This document shows, in pieces, positions 3,698 to 30,774 of a stretch of DNA of 37,813 nucleotides. The stretch's first letter is position 1. Each line of letters starts with the position of its first letter. Source of the stretch: Bacteroidota bacterium (GTDB lineage: Bacteria > Bacteroidota > Ignavibacteria > Ignavibacteriales > SURF-24); NCBI GenBank assembly GCA_030706145.1, contig JAUZPB010000034.1, positions 1 through 37,813 of the forward strand, given 5' to 3'. A model generated the notes under the pieces. The model was not told where the DNA came from and made no database searches. It saw nothing but the letters and a program-made list of their open reading frames with translations. The translations under genes and the position numbers were made by a program.

Positions 3698-6313
3698 TTA
3701 CTTCAAGAGCATCATCTTCTTTATTGCACTAAAGTTTGATCCATCAAATCCTCTTACTTCAAGCTTGTATATATATATACCGCTTGTAAGGTTTGATCCA
3801 CTAAAGTTTACTATCTGATGTCCTGCTGAATAAGCACGATTGTTCAGAATATTTGCAACTTCCTGTCCAAGTAAGTTAAATACTCTTAAGTTAACATTAG
3901 CACTTGCTTTAAGATCAAAGCTGATTGCTGTTGTTGGGTTAAATGGATTTGGATAATTCTGATCAAGTCCATAAGCTGTTGGAATCTTTGCCTCTGAAGC
4001 TACACCAACTGTAGATTTCTTGAAGTCAGCAACTGACCTTGGCAATATTTCATAACCCGTATTATATGGTGCTTTTGAAGCAAACTGAGTTGCAATACCT
4101 GTGATATCCTGAGGCCATACAACTTCAGTTGTTCCATCAATATCTGAATCCAAATCAATAAACAATGTTGTTGTATCTGTTCCGGCAAAAACTTTCATGT
4201 TAGCATTTTTACCTGCTGCAGGCCATGCTGCACTAGTTGAAGTCTTACTTAAGCCTTTTACAACAACAAGGCATCCTTCATATTTTTCTGAATTAAGGTC
4301 TTTTAATGTTATTTCAATCGGAGCTGGAACTTTTACGCCTGATTTAATTACAACAATACTTCCCTTGTCTCCAACTAAAGTATCAATAGGAACAAATTCT
4401 GTAACGCCATTATATTGGTCAACTTTACCCCTTACAAGAACACTATCACCAATATTCAAAGCTGCAGAAATTTTCTTAGCTGAATACATCAAAACACCGG
4501 AAACTCCATCGGAAATGTAGTAATTGTTTCCACCTGCACTTGCAGTAAAGTCAGGAGAAATTACAGTACCTGTAATTTTGAAATACTTACCCTTATTGTC
4601 TGGAACAAAGTCATTATCAGCATCAACTCTTGCTTGTGCAATTGTAGCAGAAGGAATAGTATCAACTACAACTGGAGTCTGGAAATCAGCTATTGAAGTT
4701 GGCATAAGTTCATATGCATTGTTTGGAGGTGTACTTCCAGTAAGCTGTGTAACAACACCAGTAATGTCCTGTGGCCATTTTACTTCAGTTGTTCCATCGA
4801 TATCTGTATCGAGATCGATATATAACATAAGTGAATCAGCTCCGGCTGCAACTCTCATTACGGCATTCTTTCCAGAAGCTGGCCAAGCTGGACTTGTAGG
4901 TGTCTTTGAAAGGCCTTTTACTTTTACAAGGCTGCCTTCATATTTTTCTGAGTTAACATCTTTTACAGTTACTTCGATTGGAGCTGGAACTGCAACTTTA
5001 GTCTTTGCAACAGTAACACTTCCTGTTGAAGAAACAACGCTATCAAATAATGCTATTTGATTTAATCCTTTGTACTGGTCAACATATCCCTTTACTACAA
5101 CGCTATCGCCAACACTCAACTGTGTAGAAAGTTTTTTTGAAGCCCTTATTGCAACACCAGCCTGACCGTCAAATATGTAATATGTATTTCCAGTTGAACT
5201 TGCTGTATAGTCTGGAGTTACAACAATACCGCTTACAGTAACTGCTGCACCTTTCATATCAGGTACAAAATCATTATTGACATCATCTCTTGTTTTTGCA
5301 ATAGCAAATGGCAGAGCAACTTTATAAGCTGACATACCATTGTTTGTAGCTAAGCCCATTATATCAATTGTACCATCGCTATTTGTTCTTACAGCTACAT
5401 CACCTGTACCGTTTGGATTTGCTTGTGCTCCCATTGAAAGAGTCTTAAATACAACCTGTGCAGCTTTTGTTCCGTCTGTAACATCAATAACCGATAAGTT
5501 TTCATTACTATTGGTACCATAGTTATAAGTAACAAGATATTTCTTTCCAAGAAGTTCAAAATATCTAAGAGCATTACTTCCTGTTGCAGAGACTGCAGTT
5601 GAAATAGTATCCAATGCCGTTCCTGTTGCTGAGAACCTTACAAGTGGATTACCATTTGCTTTAATATAAAAACCATCAGCACCATTGTTAATTGGAGCTA
5701 CAGATGGAGTTGATCCTACAGTTGTACTTAAAGTAACTTCAGTAGCTGTAAAAGTTGCACCATTATCTGTAGTTGTGAACTTTATCATTTTAGCCTTGCT
5801 TGCCACTGCTACCCAAATAACAATAGAATTATCAGCAGTTGAGCCAGTAACTGTTATCTTATCACCTACACGGTATCCACCTGCTTTGGTATTAAACTCG
5901 ATAACTTTTTCTGGATCAGAAGTAAGTGATTTCCATTTGTAAATTCTAAATAAAGAGTCACTTCCTGTGCTCACTGACATATTTGCAGCAAAGATAACAC
6001 TATCAGAAGAAACATCTATATCGTTTAACGGATATGTTCCACCTGTAATATTTGTTGTCTTTAATGTACCAATACTATCGCCTGTAGCTGCATTAAGTAT
6101 TATAATATTTGTTCCACTAAGTCTTGAAACTACAAATACTCTTTCACTAGTACCCATTTTGCCATATGCCATTCCTCTTTCGGTACTGCCGGTACCGAGA
6201 AAAGTTGGGAAATTGGCACTTGCCTTTGACTTTTCCCACAATCTGTAATACTGTGCATTAGTAGTACAGAAAGCTAAAAAGGAAATGAAAATTGTAATGA
6301 AAACGCGCTTCAA
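3698..6313 (-). CDS. Secreted DUF4623-like protein with two OB-fold-like repeats and a type IX-like sorting domain
   Basis: The 871-residue protein begins with a signal peptide (MKRVFITIFISFLAFCTTNA, cleavage expected after residue 20). Residues ~21-330 resemble the DUF4623 beta-propeller-like region (YRLWEKS, then ERGMAYG). Two copies of a ~220-residue unit follow, at ~336-553 and ~557-775. Each starts with a (N/D)NDFVPD(M/N)KG motif and a DNA-binding-like OB barrel (VSGIVVTPDYTAS and ITGTVISPDFTAS). The last ~90 residues are a Por/type IX-like sorting domain, with YPNPFNPTT starting at residue 787 and LRVFNLLGQEV after it. The start is TTG at 6311-6313 behind a perfect AGGAGG four bases upstream; no ATG would keep the signal peptide. 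The function is unknown: a surface or released protein, not a nuclease by any residue I can see. Confidence 0.85.
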   Translation of the reverse strand: MKRVFITIFISFLAFCTTNAQYYRLWEKSKASANFPTFLGTGSTERGMAYGKMGTSERVFVVSRLSGTNIIILNAATGDSIGTLKTTNITGGTYPLNDIDVSSDSVIFAANMSVSTGSDSLFRIYKWKSLTSDPEKVIEFNTKAGGYRVGDKITVTGSTADNSIVIWVAVASKAKMIKFTTTDNGATFTATEVTLSTTVGSTPSVAPINNGADGFYIKANGNPLVRFSATGTALDTISTAVSATGSNALRYFELLGKKYLVTYNYGTNSNENLSVIDVTDGTKAAQVVFKTLSMGAQANPNGTGDVAVRTNSDGTIDIMGLATNNGMSAYKVALPFAIAKTRDDVNNDFVPDMKGAAVTVSGIVVTPDYTASSTGNTYYIFDGQAGVAIRASKKLSTQLSVGDSVVVKGYVDQYKGLNQIALFDSVVSSTGSVTVAKTKVAVPAPIEVTVKDVNSEKYEGSLVKVKGLSKTPTSPAWPASGKNAVMRVAAGADSLMLYIDLDTDIDGTTEVKWPQDITGVVTQLTGSTPPNNAYELMPTSIADFQTPVVVDTIPSATIAQARVDADNDFVPDNKGKYFKITGTVISPDFTASAGGNNYYISDGVSGVLMYSAKKISAALNIGDSVLVRGKVDQYNGVTEFVPIDTLVGDKGSIVVIKSGVKVPAPIEITLKDLNSEKYEGCLVVVKGLSKTSTSAAWPAAGKNANMKVFAGTDTTTLFIDLDSDIDGTTEVVWPQDITGIATQFASKAPYNTGYEILPRSVADFKKSTVGVASEAKIPTAYGLDQNYPNPFNPTTAISFDLKASANVNLRVFNLLGQEVANILNNRAYSAGHQIVNFSGSNLTSGIYIYKLEVRGFDGSNFSAIKKMMLLK

Positions 6314-6373
6314 TTTACCTCCTGTTTTATTTTTTGAACATCTAACCTGTACATGGTTGATTTTTCGAAAGTA

Positions 6374-6402
6374 AAACTAGGAGAAAAATTGCTCCCTGTC
6401 AA
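6374..6402 (-). promoter_or_regulatory. Candidate sigma-70-type promoter for the DUF4623-like gene
   Basis: On the minus strand, a perfect TTGACA (-35) at 6402-6397 is followed after exactly 17 bases by TAGTTT (-10-like) at 6379-6374. This lies about 60 bases upstream of the TTG start. The -35 is a full match, but the -10 is weak, so this is a prediction only. Confidence 0.4.
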
Positions 6403-6622
6403 GTTTGACCTTTAAATTAAAAATAAAACCGGAATAAATTTGCAGAAACTTTGCTGGAAGTTAGGGATAAGACATTATTATTAGGTTTAGATGAGTAAGT
6501 TATTTTCGATTTTATTCTTTGCCTTTCAATGTTTTTCACAAAGTAAGGCCGATTGCGTTTGTATTAAGCTAAAAAGTCGCAATTTCGCATATAAATTAAA
6601 CAGAGTTTACCTTTATATAATT

Positions 6623-11494: not shown

Positions 11495-12178
11495 ATGAGC
11501 GAGAACGAGCAAAACAAAATCGATATGTACGAAGCCGTTTTGTCATTATTGGCAGAGAACAAGGATATCATCTCTGGTATCCCATCTTTCAACTGGGCAA
11601 TTTCTAAGTTGCGTAAAGCAATCGATGAAATAAAAAGAGAAGATAAGATGATCTCCTCAGAAACCTTTAATATGACAATTCAAACATCTAAAATAAAAGA
11701 TGATCTAATTTTTAATTTAGTGCCAATTGCTTCTGCATTATTTAATTTTGCAAAAGCTAATAATGATCTGCCTCTGAAGGAAAAAACTAGATTCTCTCAG
11801 AGCCATTTTGTAAGAATGCTTGACAAAGAGTTGATCGAAAAGGCTGATCTGCTAATATTGTTGGCAGAAAAAAATATCGGGAAACTAAAAAGTTACCATG
11901 TTTCAAATGCTTCACTCAGCAATGTAAAAGGGATACTTAATACTTTTAAGAGCTCATTGGATAGCAAAATAGCAAGTCTTATTTCGACAAGTGCATTAAC
12001 TCCTCTAACGGAATTATTCAATGAGTCAGATAAAATACTCAGTAAATACCTGGATGTCTATATGGAAAACTTAATGGAAGAAAATGAAGAATTCTATGAT
12101 GAATACCTATGGACCAGAGATACTGAGAACCTGGATGATAAAAAAGCATTAATGGAACTTGAAGAAGACGAACAATAA
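11495..12178 (+). CDS. Acidic helical protein of unknown function
   Basis: I do not recognise this 227-residue protein. It has no signal peptide or membrane segment and is predicted mostly helical, with heptad-like leucine/isoleucine spacing. Its C-terminus is strongly acidic, ending in clusters of Glu/Asp around EENEEFYDEY and MELEEDEQ. The ATG follows AAAGGAG with good spacing, and the gene has its own hairpin terminator (12208-12238) and a palindrome upstream, so it looks like an independent, regulated cytoplasmic gene. The first third (SGIPSFNWAISKLRKAIDEI) resembles short orphan proteins I associate with Bacteroidota relatives, but I cannot name a family. Confidence 0.75.
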   Translation: MSENEQNKIDMYEAVLSLLAENKDIISGIPSFNWAISKLRKAIDEIKREDKMISSETFNMTIQTSKIKDDLIFNLVPIASALFNFAKANNDLPLKEKTRFSQSHFVRMLDKELIEKADLLILLAEKNIGKLKSYHVSNASLSNVKGILNTFKSSLDSKIASLISTSALTPLTELFNESDKILSKYLDVYMENLMEENEEFYDEYLWTRDTENLDDKKALMELEEDEQ

Positions 12179-12935: not shown

Positions 12936-12980
12936 ACTATTAAGGGTAAGTGGTTATAAATGAAGGAAGGAAAGATAACT

Positions 12981-13433
12981 ATGCTTAAGTTAAGAATAAT
13001 AGTAGCTTTAGTTCTGGCATTTGCTTTTGCGCAATCATTGTTTGCTGAAAGTGATGCAGTAATGGTTCAGAACAAATTCAAACAATATTTCAATTTAACA
13101 GCTCAAAAAGTAAAACAGGCTACCGATCCTGTTCAAAAACGTGCTATTCTGAACGAATCCTTTGAAAAAATGCAAAATACACTCAATAAGATCTCAAATA
13201 TGTCCAATATACCTTCAAAGGATCTTGTAGCTATCAATTCCATACAAAAATCTGTCCAGGATAAATATAATGAACTAAATGGCCTTAATGGCTATACCAA
13301 GCTTAAAGATAATCAGTTAAATAACTTTGCAGATTATGTTCAGCAGGACATGGAGCAGGCCGACCAATGGGTAACTATCAGTGTTACAACATTACTGCTT
13401 GTTGCCATCTTGCTAATTCTTCTTCTTCGTTAA
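12981..13433 (+). CDS. Secreted helical protein with a C-terminal membrane anchor
   Basis: From the ATG at 12981 the protein has 150 residues: a signal peptide (MLKLRIIVALVLAFAFAQSLFA), a ~100-residue polar helical region likely to form a coiled-coil or bundle, and a C-terminal membrane helix (WVTISVTTLLLVAILLILLLR) with only Arg after it. It should be attached to the inner membrane by its tail with the body in the periplasm. An ATG 21 bases upstream (12960) is also open, but GGAAGGAAAG at 12964-12973 is placed to serve the second ATG, and the shorter form has a more typical signal peptide. No family is recognised. A terminator hairpin (13448-13477) separates it from the next gene. Confidence 0.75.
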   Translation: MLKLRIIVALVLAFAFAQSLFAESDAVMVQNKFKQYFNLTAQKVKQATDPVQKRAILNESFEKMQNTLNKISNMSNIPSKDLVAINSIQKSVQDKYNELNGLNGYTKLKDNQLNNFADYVQQDMEQADQWVTISVTTLLLVAILLILLLR

Positions 13434-13447
13434 ATTAAGTTCGCTGT

Positions 13448-13477
13448 GAAGGCATGCCTTATATTAGGCATGTCTTC
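13448..13477 (+). terminator. Terminator after the tail-anchored protein gene
   Basis: GAAGGCATGCC (13448-13458) pairs with GGCATGTCTTC (13467-13477) through 11 bp including one G-U pair, with an 8-base loop, and is followed by ATTATTT. This argues against the GTG at 13446 as the start of the next gene, because that start would lie inside the hairpin. Confidence 0.65.
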
Positions 13478-13500
13478 ATTATTTATGTCTTCATTATTTA
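13471..13500. repeat. Perfect 15-bp tandem duplication
   Basis: TGTCTTCATTATTTA is present twice head to tail (13471-13485, 13486-13500). The first copy starts in the 3' arm of the terminator hairpin. It lies 30 bases before the lipoprotein start and has no in-frame coding role if that start is right. Confidence 0.8.
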
Positions 13501-13529: not shown

Positions 13530-14615
13530 ATGAAAAAGTATTTATTTTTCCTCATTTTTTGCCTTGCTCTCGCTTCATGCAGCAGCATTCCAAGCAAGTT
13601 TGAGAGTTTTCAGTCCAAAGGTAATATTAAGTATAGCATTATCTACCTGATCCATGGTGATGGGAGCTATTTATATCATGATTCTTCAGGAAATCAAATA
13701 AATGCCGATGAAAGAATGCTGCATCAGGCACAGCTTGTTGCAGAACACTCGCCTGAATCTGAAGTCTTTATATTCCACATTAAACCCAAAGAACACTTTC
13801 TATTTTTCTTCCCACTCAAGGACAGAGAATTATTTCATTACCAAAACGGAAAGCTAATTACTTCTATGACATATAATACGGAAGAATCCTATAGCAATCT
13901 GGAACTTGAATCAAGATATTACAAAAGATACACTCTGGATAATTATATGAATCCTAAAGCAGGAGCAATAAAAAAGCTGTTTTTGTTCTATGGGCACCAG
14001 ATCCCAGAATTTGGCGGAAATGGTTATAATTCCTCTTATCCGGATATGGCTTTCAATTTGGATAATTTTATTGCTGGCCTGTCACAATTTAGAATGTACT
14101 CAGAAGATAAATTTGATCTTGTAGTCTTATCTACCTGCAACAATGGTACCCCGGGCGTCATATCAAAACTTTCTCCTTTGGCTAGATATGCTATTGCTTC
14201 CCCAGAAGACCTGCACCTCTCTTACATTAGCAGCCTGCCAATTCTTGAGCTAAATAAGGCCTTACAAAACCATCCATTCGAAGAATTTGTAAAACAATTT
14301 GCTCAAAAAGGGTTTGATGAACTTACCAGGCTAACACAGACTATTGTAACTGTCTCTGTATATGATATGAACAAAGTCACTGTTTTCCTTAGTAATGTAA
14401 AGGAAAGCTATAGAAAACTGATAAATCAGACCGAAAACAGAGCCCAAAACCAGATAATATGTGATGACTGCATAAAAAATGGTCAACTTAATATGACAAA
14501 CTCAGATTATGGCGTTATTGTATTTTATAGACCTCCCATCTTTGGAAGATCAAAAGCCTTAAGCTCACATTCTGGATGGGGATGCCCACAATCCTCCCGA
14601 GCAAATCCACAATAA
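13530..14615 (+). CDS. Lipoprotein resembling clostripain-family (C11, clan CD) cysteine peptidases
   Basis: Taking the ATG at 13530, the protein has 361 residues with a clear lipoprotein signal (LALASC, Cys17). The body follows the clan CD pattern: a hydrophobic strand ending in a candidate catalytic His (LFLFYGHQ, His156), then KFDLVVLSTC with a candidate catalytic Cys203. This is followed by LARYAIASPEDLHLSYISSL, which parallels the strand, Ser-rich turn and helix after the clostripain Cys. The usual HG is GH-Q here and the DAC motif is STC, so it is a divergent member and may be inactive or of changed specificity. The GTG at 13446 gives a longer frame but lacks a sensible signal peptide. 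No Shine-Dalgarno is obvious at 13530. Surface-anchored processing or sensing is possible. Confidence 0.65.
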   Translation: MKKYLFFLIFCLALASCSSIPSKFESFQSKGNIKYSIIYLIHGDGSYLYHDSSGNQINADERMLHQAQLVAEHSPESEVFIFHIKPKEHFLFFFPLKDRELFHYQNGKLITSMTYNTEESYSNLELESRYYKRYTLDNYMNPKAGAIKKLFLFYGHQIPEFGGNGYNSSYPDMAFNLDNFIAGLSQFRMYSEDKFDLVVLSTCNNGTPGVISKLSPLARYAIASPEDLHLSYISSLPILELNKALQNHPFEEFVKQFAQKGFDELTRLTQTIVTVSVYDMNKVTVFLSNVKESYRKLINQTENRAQNQIICDDCIKNGQLNMTNSDYGVIVFYRPPIFGRSKALSSHSGWGCPQSSRANPQ

Positions 14616-14754: not shown

Positions 14755-15003
14755 ATGAATGAATTAAAACAAAAGGATAGTAATCCTTTAGCAGATATCA
14801 TCAATGACGAAATCTATATAACTCTAAAGAATGAAGGATTGTTGGACAGAAAAGCTATTCGTGATTATCAGATCCAGATCAGGTTCAAGGAACTAAAGCT
14901 TGCTCAGCTTCAAACAATTGATGCAATAAAGATCTTGTTTATTGAATATCCTGATCTGGATTTTGCTACAATCAACAAAATTATATATCAGAAAGAGATA
15001 TAA
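14755..15003 (+). CDS. Small orphan protein (82 residues)
   Basis: This is a short, charged, mostly helical cytoplasmic protein (starts MNELKQKDSNPLADIINDEI, ends NKIIYQKEI) without a recognised domain. The ATG is preceded by GGGAAA about 9 bases upstream. The frame is a plausible gene because of its balanced composition and position after the lipoprotein gene on the same strand, with a 139-base gap. The segment RKAIRDYQIQIRFKEL could be a small helix-turn-helix, but I do not claim it. Function is unknown. Confidence 0.55.
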   Translation: MNELKQKDSNPLADIINDEIYITLKNEGLLDRKAIRDYQIQIRFKELKLAQLQTIDAIKILFIEYPDLDFATINKIIYQKEI

Positions 15004-29812: not shown

Positions 29813-30202
29813 TTATTTATTTTTAAGAGTATTCCAGAAGGCCGATACACCACGAGATATACCAACGATTTTCTTAAACCACTCGGCATTAGGATGCTCA
29901 ATATTAGCTTTCATTTTCTTTGTCTTATCAAGAAGATCTTCAGCTTTGTGCTTTAGGTTATCTACTAAAATCTTCACTGCTGAAACTACCGACTCTACTT
30001 CTTCTGTGATTAGGACAACTTTACCACTTAAAACATCTACATTTGTAAGAATAGGATCGATCTTATTTTTTATCTGTTTTACATCTTCCTGAACCGATGC
30101 TATTGTCTGCGTTAGCTTCCTTAGTGTTATTACCAAATAGACGCACAAAAGAGAAGCAGAAATTAACAGGACAACTAAGAAAACATTGACCGCAACATCC
30201 AT
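29813..30202 (-). CDS. DUF948-like membrane-anchored coiled-coil protein
   Basis: The 129-residue protein has one N-terminal membrane helix (AVNVFLVVLLISASLLCVYLVITL) followed by a long amphipathic helix (TQTIASVQEDVKQIKNKIDPILTNVDVLSGKV) typical of DUF948 proteins. It should be held in the membrane with a coiled-coil body. The ATG is preceded by AAGGGAGG. DUF948 and YtxH genes are commonly neighbours, and here they are separated by 155 bases that contain a hairpin structure. Function is unknown; it is presumed related to envelope stress or to a scaffold. Confidence 0.8.
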   Translation of the reverse strand: MDVAVNVFLVVLLISASLLCVYLVITLRKLTQTIASVQEDVKQIKNKIDPILTNVDVLSGKVVLITEEVESVVSAVKILVDNLKHKAEDLLDKTKKMKANIEHPNAEWFKKIVGISRGVSAFWNTLKNK

Positions 30203-30357: not shown

Positions 30358-30774
30358 CTAGGACTGCTGCTCATTTTTATAAGCATCTAAACCAGCCTTA
30401 AAAGCATTCTTTAACTTGTCACTTTCTTTCCCAACTGATTCCTTTGAGGTGTTTATTGCCTCACCAGCTTTATCTTTTGCGTCAGAGAGTATCTTTTCTG
30501 CATCTTGAAGTAATGAATCTACCTTTACTTTAGCGTCAGCTATTAACTTTTCCGATTTTTTTTTACCATCATTTATCATATCTACTGCTTTGTCTTTTGC
30601 TTCAGCAAGGTACTTTTCTGCATCTTCCATGAATTCATCAGTCTTATCCTTAATATCTTTCCTTAATTCTTTTCCGCTCTTTGGGGCATACAATAGAGCT
30701 ATTAGTGAACCTACAACAGATCCGGCTAATAAACCGATTAACAGACCTTTTCCCATTTCATTGTCTCTTGACAT
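30358..30774 (-). CDS. YtxH-like general stress protein
   Basis: The 138-residue protein has an N-terminal glycine-rich membrane segment (KGLLIGLLAGSVVGSLIALLYAPKSGKELR), the signature of YtxH proteins. A long lysine- and aspartate-rich amphipathic helix follows, resembling LEA-like repeats (DKTDEFMEDAEKYLAEAKDKAVDMI and ILSDAKDKAGEAI). The ATG follows GGAGG. YtxH proteins are stress-linked in Bacillus; the molecular role is unknown. It lies just downstream of the isocitrate dehydrogenase gene with a 106-base gap. Confidence 0.85.
   Translation of the reverse strand: MSRDNEMGKGLLIGLLAGSVVGSLIALLYAPKSGKELRKDIKDKTDEFMEDAEKYLAEAKDKAVDMINDGKKKSEKLIADAKVKVDSLLQDAEKILSDAKDKAGEAINTSKESVGKESDKLKNAFKAGLDAYKNEQQS

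Follow-up and report, generated by a model that had tools for sequence, protein, structure and literature searches.

The window, which is the whole 37,813-nucleotide stretch of DNA analyzed here, is an entire contig of a 5.3 Mb genome. On its plus strand it carries a gene (13530..14615) for a 361-aa lipoprotein, which was classed as a putative C11-fold peptidase on the basis of Pfam, alignment, and an AlphaFold2 model. A reading-frame check placed its ATG at 13530 and its stop codon at 14613-14615. The predicted lipidated residue, Cys17, closes a lipobox (L14-A-S-C17) and was kept in 59/59 aligned rows reaching that column, and the LPAM_1 model scored 14.7 on this protein, below its cut-off of 20. 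Two further motifs, LFLFYGHQ with His156 and KFDLVVLSTC with Cys203, give a His-to-Cys spacing of 47 residues. On re-reading the sequence, the frame, coordinates, and motifs listed in the first-pass annotation were all found as described, and the Pfam match, the modeled fold, and the invariant dyad given below mark the pattern as more than a chance likeness.

Five short segments of the lipoprotein gene, all on the plus strand, recur in the analysis. Gly155-His156-Gln157 (13992..14000) holds the putative catalytic histidine, and Ser201-Thr202-Cys203 (14130..14138) holds the putative catalytic cysteine, with Ser201 at the place of the C11 S1 aspartate. His42-Gly43-Asp44 (13653..13661) occupies an L1-loop position and was proposed as a wall of the S1 pocket. 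An L5-like segment, Ala223-Ser-Pro-Glu-Asp-Leu-His229-Leu-Ser231 (14196..14222), showed no variation at A223, S224, P225, L228, H229, or S231 across 63 rows; residues 216-227, which run into it, read LARYAIASPEDL. The fifth is an invariant C-terminal motif stretching from Asp313-Cys314 to His347-Ser-Gly-Trp-x-Cys352 (14466..14585), in which C314, W350, and C352 were found in 61/61 rows with a letter there, and whose two cysteines, Cys314 and Cys352, could possibly form a disulfide.

Directly upstream on the same strand lies a gene for a 150-aa protein (12981..13433), referred to here as the partner. From its homologues and a structural model, it is predicted to have a signal peptide, a four-helix ectodomain, and, at its C-terminus, a membrane helix followed by a single Arg. 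A purine-rich stretch resembling a ribosome site precedes it at ~12963-12972. Between the two genes, a terminator-like scan and RNA folding identified a hairpin on the plus strand with a 14-pair stem and a T-rich tail (13446..13479).

The lipoprotein matched Pfam Peptidase_C11 (PF03415) with 27.7 bits (gathering cut-off 25.8, E 2.5e-6) and was the sole C11 match at E <=0.01 in its own genome; at this threshold, 44/63 members of its family matched PF03415. Pfam listed three families for the lipoprotein at E up to 10, none of them the caspase family, and NCBIfam returned no family above cut-off. A profile search of PDB sequences matched no C11 entry, and its sole match, spectrin, was judged to be due to chance. 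Profile comparison against six C11 sequences aligned STC to DAC and ASPED to the canonical ASPGE (probability 85, E 6.3e-6); this comparison aligned the Cys half alone, and the placement of the histidine rests on the model and the spacing.

The AlphaFold2 model of the lipoprotein, made with a 63-row alignment, had a mean pLDDT of 90.4 and a pTM of 0.89. The top nine rows returned by Foldseek were all C11 structures. VIA-align Z scores were 22.0 for iotapain 6n9j_B, 21.1 for 6nag_A, 20.2 for clostripain 9cip_A, and 19.9 for 6mzo, in alignments that spanned 272-282 residues within model residues 28-361 at 12-15% identity. After C11, the next-best fold was that of SAVED-CHAT 8tl0 (Z 11.3 over 181 residues), followed by caspases and legumain with Z around 9: caspase-7, far below C11, reached 9.3 (rmsd 3.7 over 171 residues), and legumain reached 8.9. 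The GPI transamidase chain 7wld_K appeared at Foldseek rank 28 with E 0.057. According to the model, the lipoprotein is predicted to adopt the clostripain (C11) fold including its C-terminal part. This agrees with the original proposal of a divergent clostripain-like clan CD lipoprotein that retains the His/Cys dyad beside changed residues, and the fold search suggested at that stage returned the C11 fold (Z 19.9-22.0). Given that the fold is C11 and the Pfam cut-off is passed, yet two motifs characteristic of C11 are absent, the family is best described as a distinct sister subfamily on the C11 scaffold, accompanied by a new partner family.

The dyad itself was constant. G155, H156, and C203 were invariant in 63/63 aligned rows. 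Collection of the main loci had relied on two peptide patterns that cover the His and Cys regions; for this reason, invariance was rechecked on a set selected by profile only, which overlaps the main set in some genomes and in which 16/33 rows match neither pattern. In that set, His156, Cys203, His42, Asp44, Ser201, and His229 were kept in 33/33. The constancy of His156 and Cys203 that the first-pass annotation had put forward for checking was thus seen in both collections. Since these two residues are invariant, it is highly likely that the lipoprotein is a catalytic, C11-fold peptidase.

According to PMC4850289, the characteristic motifs of C11 peptidases are H(G/A) and D(A/S)C. The window lipoprotein has neither: its doublet is H-Q, and its triplet, S-T-C, does not have the S1 aspartate. 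Across 62 non-redundant rows, the residue following the catalytic His gave H-E in 56, H-Q in 2, and H-D, H-A, H-K, and H-G in 1 each, while the triplet at the Cys carried Ser201 in 59 (Ala in 3) and Thr202 in 59 (Ser in 3). The changes from HG to HQ and from DAC to STC noted earlier are therefore real and reflect family-wide traits (H-E/Q and S-T-C), with the correction that H-Q itself is the minority form. His42 was present in 60/61 rows with a letter at that position (Asn in the remaining one), and Asp44 in 61/61. Another lipoprotein-like C11 protein of the phylum (L108, 1354-2469) offers a contrast case, with a canonical D-A-C and with H-A instead of H-G.

These substitutions bear on specificity. 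In published work, Asp177 in the triplet of PmC11 is named as the main S1 residue and as conserved across the whole family (PMC4850288), whose members are described as specialized for Arg or Lys (PMC4850288, PMC12445089), and S1 specificity in clan CD is assigned to alpha1/L1, L4, and L5 (PMC4357240). By order and spacing, His42/Asp44, Ser201, and His229 map to the L1, L4, and L5 places, respectively, and we infer that these four residues line the S1 pocket. As the Asp of DAC is the published S1 residue and is Ser here, P1 specificity has probably changed and the Arg/Lys preference has probably been dropped; the substrate pocket was apparently rebuilt, judging from the residues at these positions. 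PmC11 autocleaves at a basic residue, Lys147, in the loop after the His (PMC4850288). Residues 157-186 of the lipoprotein contain no Lys or Arg, and autocleavage sites elsewhere in the protein remain conceivable.

An alignment-based scan of public genomes recovered 64 loci of the lipoprotein family, while a scan of the same genomes with the single protein gave no match. The locus titles included Ignavibacteria, Balneolaceae, Bacteroidetes, Calditrichaeota, Zixiibacteriota, KSB1, Krumholzibacteriota, Fibrobacteres, and others, and two carriers were cultured, Fodinibius salsisoli (L047) and Aliifodinibius salipaludis (L058). Misbinning of contigs may explain some of these titles: a locus titled Cloacimonadota (L078) and one titled Balneolales (L077) agree in profile score and gap. 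Alignment A3 omits L070 and L078, which nearly duplicate L067 and L077, and alignment A4 keeps both. When 146 related genomes were searched, 14 had a match, and 11 besides the window's own held a full or near full-length homologue with 39-47% identity; three short, weak matches of this search (L014, L015, and L016), like one of another search (L002), fell in unrelated reading frames and were dropped. Identity of family members to the window lipoprotein went down to 29%; in the tree, the latter was sister to a protein from an Ignavibacteria bin (support 100/92). No relatives were found in viral contigs.

A homologue of the partner lay upstream of the lipoprotein in 58/64 loci. Among the six loci with no partner row (L025, L037, L055, L061, L063, and L079), the contig ends within ~200 bases in five, and only L025 has room (1.3 kb) yet lacks the gene. 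With a family spread over 64 loci and an upstream gene of a single family in most of them, the earlier placement of the lipoprotein "among orphan genes" does not hold. In 395 genomes of the phylum, the lipoprotein was present in 34, the partner in 35, and both in 34 (Fisher 2e-48), so that 0/34 lipoprotein genomes were without a partner. One genome (G349) kept both genes on different contigs; with the genes unlinked there, linkage alone cannot account for the co-occurrence. Departures from one-to-one pairing consisted of a genome with the partner only (G422), two with extra partners (G335 and G449), and two (G481 and G298, loci L105/L106) in which decayed second lipoprotein copies sit beside intact partner genes. 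In a Fibrobacteres locus (L068), two partner-like genes, at 4385-4861 and ~6072-6528, flank the lipoprotein. We regard a functional pairing of the lipoprotein and the partner as nearly certain.

The partner was modeled with a mean pLDDT of 80.9, with helices at 25-47, 51-73, 80-101, and 111-130 and a terminal helix at 136-150 (numbering begins one codon before the ATG). In its 59-row alignment, the most conserved segment was the loop spanning 100-111 together with helix 4 (L100, G102, G105, L114, F117, and Q127), and this loop was predicted to be rigid (block pLDDT 97). Position 104 was N in 40 rows, D in 15, T in 1, and K in 1, with G105 in 56/57. A final Lys or Arg after the membrane helix was present in 11/57 non-redundant rows. 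The window partner matched no Pfam family, even at E 0.01, and a profile search of PDB sequences returned weak helical matches only. Pfam matches on the other partner rows were scattered, with <=3/59 members per family, and were taken as coiled-coil noise. Cytochrome b562-type four-helix bundles and other helical proteins returned by the partner fold search (E >=0.13) were attributed to a common shape and not to kinship.

The intergenic hairpin of the window had a z of −3.5, and 0/200 shuffles were as stable. Fifty-two gaps were folded, after omission of seven gaps <15 nt. A z < −2 was found in 16 of them, corresponding to 15/20 gaps of at least 60 nt and 1/32 shorter gaps; three gaps counted as long (L019, L042, and L043) may really be shorter, since late start codons were chosen for them. 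The window hairpin is a possible partial terminator, and the hairpins of several relatives resemble intrinsic terminators, which suggests that the partner transcript may exceed that of the enzyme.

Neighbors beyond the pair vary, and most of the recurrent ones have envelope, sensor, or stress functions. Counted by cluster representative over the 64 loci, these were a histidine kinase (21), OmpA-DUF4398 (16), an M48 peptidase (8), an ice-binding-like protein with a type IX secretion tail (8; e.g., L034, 2121-3257), and YtxH (7), and a small lipoprotein-like protein without a Pfam match recurred in 7/64. In the 43 genomes with the lipoprotein or the partner, YtxH genes lay <=5 kb from the pair in 7 places against 0.26 expected, and 3/11 DUF4398 loci over cut-off did so against 0.03 expected, both being rough expectations that ignore kinship, use rounded genome sizes, and draw on 88 of 89 YtxH hits. 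In one genome (G213), two YtxH-type genes stand between the partner and the enzyme.

The window has a YtxH-like gene of its own (30358-30774), 16 kb from the pair. It is adjoined on the same strand by an open reading frame (29813-30202) with a sub-threshold DUF948 match (35.3 vs. 37.2 bits). The 871-aa product of 3698-6313 carries a type IX secretion sorting tail (PF18962) and weakly matches an OB-fold. A 227-aa ORF (11495-12178) precedes the pair on its strand; Pfam returned nothing over cut-off for it, and neither NCBIfam nor PADLOC matched it. Downstream of the lipoprotein, an 82-aa ORF (14755-15003) had no Pfam match.

Neither the lipoprotein nor the partner matched a PADLOC model at E up to 1, in a library of described systems only. 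A phage-defense reading was set low, and the neighbor counts, rough as they are, point to envelope or general stress and not to phage defense or viruses. Of the two roles suggested at first pass, cell-death-like signaling is thus not borne out, and surface or envelope processing by the lipoprotein is possible.

Taken together, the reading we place first, with confidence a little short of even, is an active envelope cysteine peptidase acting on or with a dedicated membrane partner. The lipoprotein, facing the periplasm or located at the surface, would act as a C11-fold cysteine peptidase via His156 and Cys203, and the small helical ectodomain of the partner would be held in the inner membrane by its terminal helix. 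Made in excess over the enzyme, the partner would be either a dedicated substrate, our first choice, or a membrane adaptor, with the lipoprotein performing limited proteolysis on it or together with it, and the pair may in this way serve envelope maintenance or stress signaling. That the partner is the substrate is a tentative choice, which we would put slightly below an even chance. It is preferred because the enzyme is never without the partner in 34 genomes and the partner is sometimes alone or in excess; additional copies would also fit a partner that has a job of its own. The rigid, conserved loop of the partner counts against it, as it suits docking and is unlike a typical cleavage site. 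That same loop and helix 4 resemble a docking face. This, and the presence of the partner in every one of the 34 genomes with the enzyme, favors a role as adaptor or activator, in which the partner would tether the peptidase at the membrane, placing it or turning it on, while the true substrates would be other envelope proteins. We consider this rather unlikely, as the partner persists without the enzyme (G422) and outnumbers it in G335, G449, G481, and G298, and the intergenic hairpins suggest unequal output. The order of the genes, with the partner first and possibly in excess, would also fit a dedicated inhibitor that shields the cell from the peptidase, and a decayed enzyme by an intact partner is the remnant expected after loss of a harmful enzyme. 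A membrane helix of its own and a conserved juxtamembrane motif are unusual for a small inhibitor, however, and the unlinked retention in G349 suggests a benefit from both genes, which makes this role distinctly unlikely. Any role of the partner other than substrate, adaptor or activator, or inhibitor has a slim chance.

A more specific and speculative version, which we judge improbable, is a two-gene envelope switch in which caspase- or legumain-like specificity would have been re-invented on the clostripain scaffold, with His42/Asp44, Ser201, and His229 replacing the acidic pocket of C11. The partner would be cut between Asn/Asp104 and Gly105, or its tail-less helix would be removed in the manner of GPI transamidase, signaling envelope stress. 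The absence of the H-G/A and D-A/S-C motifs by which C11 is characterized (PMC4850289) could instead mark lost activity, the lipoprotein then being a non-catalytic C11-fold binder of the partner. This is very unlikely, as His156 and Cys203, which an inactive enzyme should lose, were retained in both sets and down to 29% identity. The C11 fold and Pfam score would also accommodate a plain clostripain-type Arg/Lys peptidase in an incidental operon structure, but the S1 Asp is replaced by Ser (or Ala) across the whole family and the pairing persists across phyla and when unlinked, so we hold this reading to be extremely improbable.

Given the co-inheritance in 34/34 lipoprotein genomes, the pair stands as a strong candidate for an envelope module not yet described. 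A literature search, largely without subscription journals, returned no description of the pair or of a clostripain-like lipoprotein of Ignavibacteria or Balneolota, no paper joining "peptidase c11" and "ignavibacteria", and none with "clostripain-like lipoprotein". A deep family of environmental bacteria in which the dyad is kept and the S1 Asp is dropped represents a natural test of the specificity determinants of clan CD. The partner, in turn, supplies an enzyme-target hypothesis that could be tested in cultured halophiles, for example Fodinibius salsisoli.

Several known systems resemble parts of this one. CHAT proteases (SAVED-CHAT) form the second-best fold group and have an LSxC-like Cys strand, a trait shared with the lipoprotein. 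They are defense proteins without a lipoprotein signal, whereas the protein here carries a lipoprotein signal and the C-terminal part of C11 and matched no PADLOC model. Caspases and metacaspases (C14) share the core caspase fold and the order of the dyad; the lipoprotein differs in lacking QAC, the Cys motif of the caspase family, and in having a lipoprotein signal and a C11-type C-terminal part. Legumain (C13) and the GPI transamidase subunit PIG-K have the clan CD fold in common with the lipoprotein, although no sequence kinship was found. GPI signals end in a hydrophobic helix without a cytosolic tail, as the partner does; this likeness is an analogy only, and nothing points to transamidation. 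The closest resemblance is to the C11 peptidases (clostripain, PmC11, iotapain, distapain, and fragipain), which share the full-length fold with its C-terminal part, a dyad ~46-47 residues apart, and export. Unlike these, the lipoprotein family has H-E/Q in place of H-G/A, S-T-C in place of D-A/S-C, and no S1 Asp, and is further set apart by an invariant Asp44 and His229, a near-invariant His42, a C-terminal HSGWxC motif, and a co-inherited second gene family.
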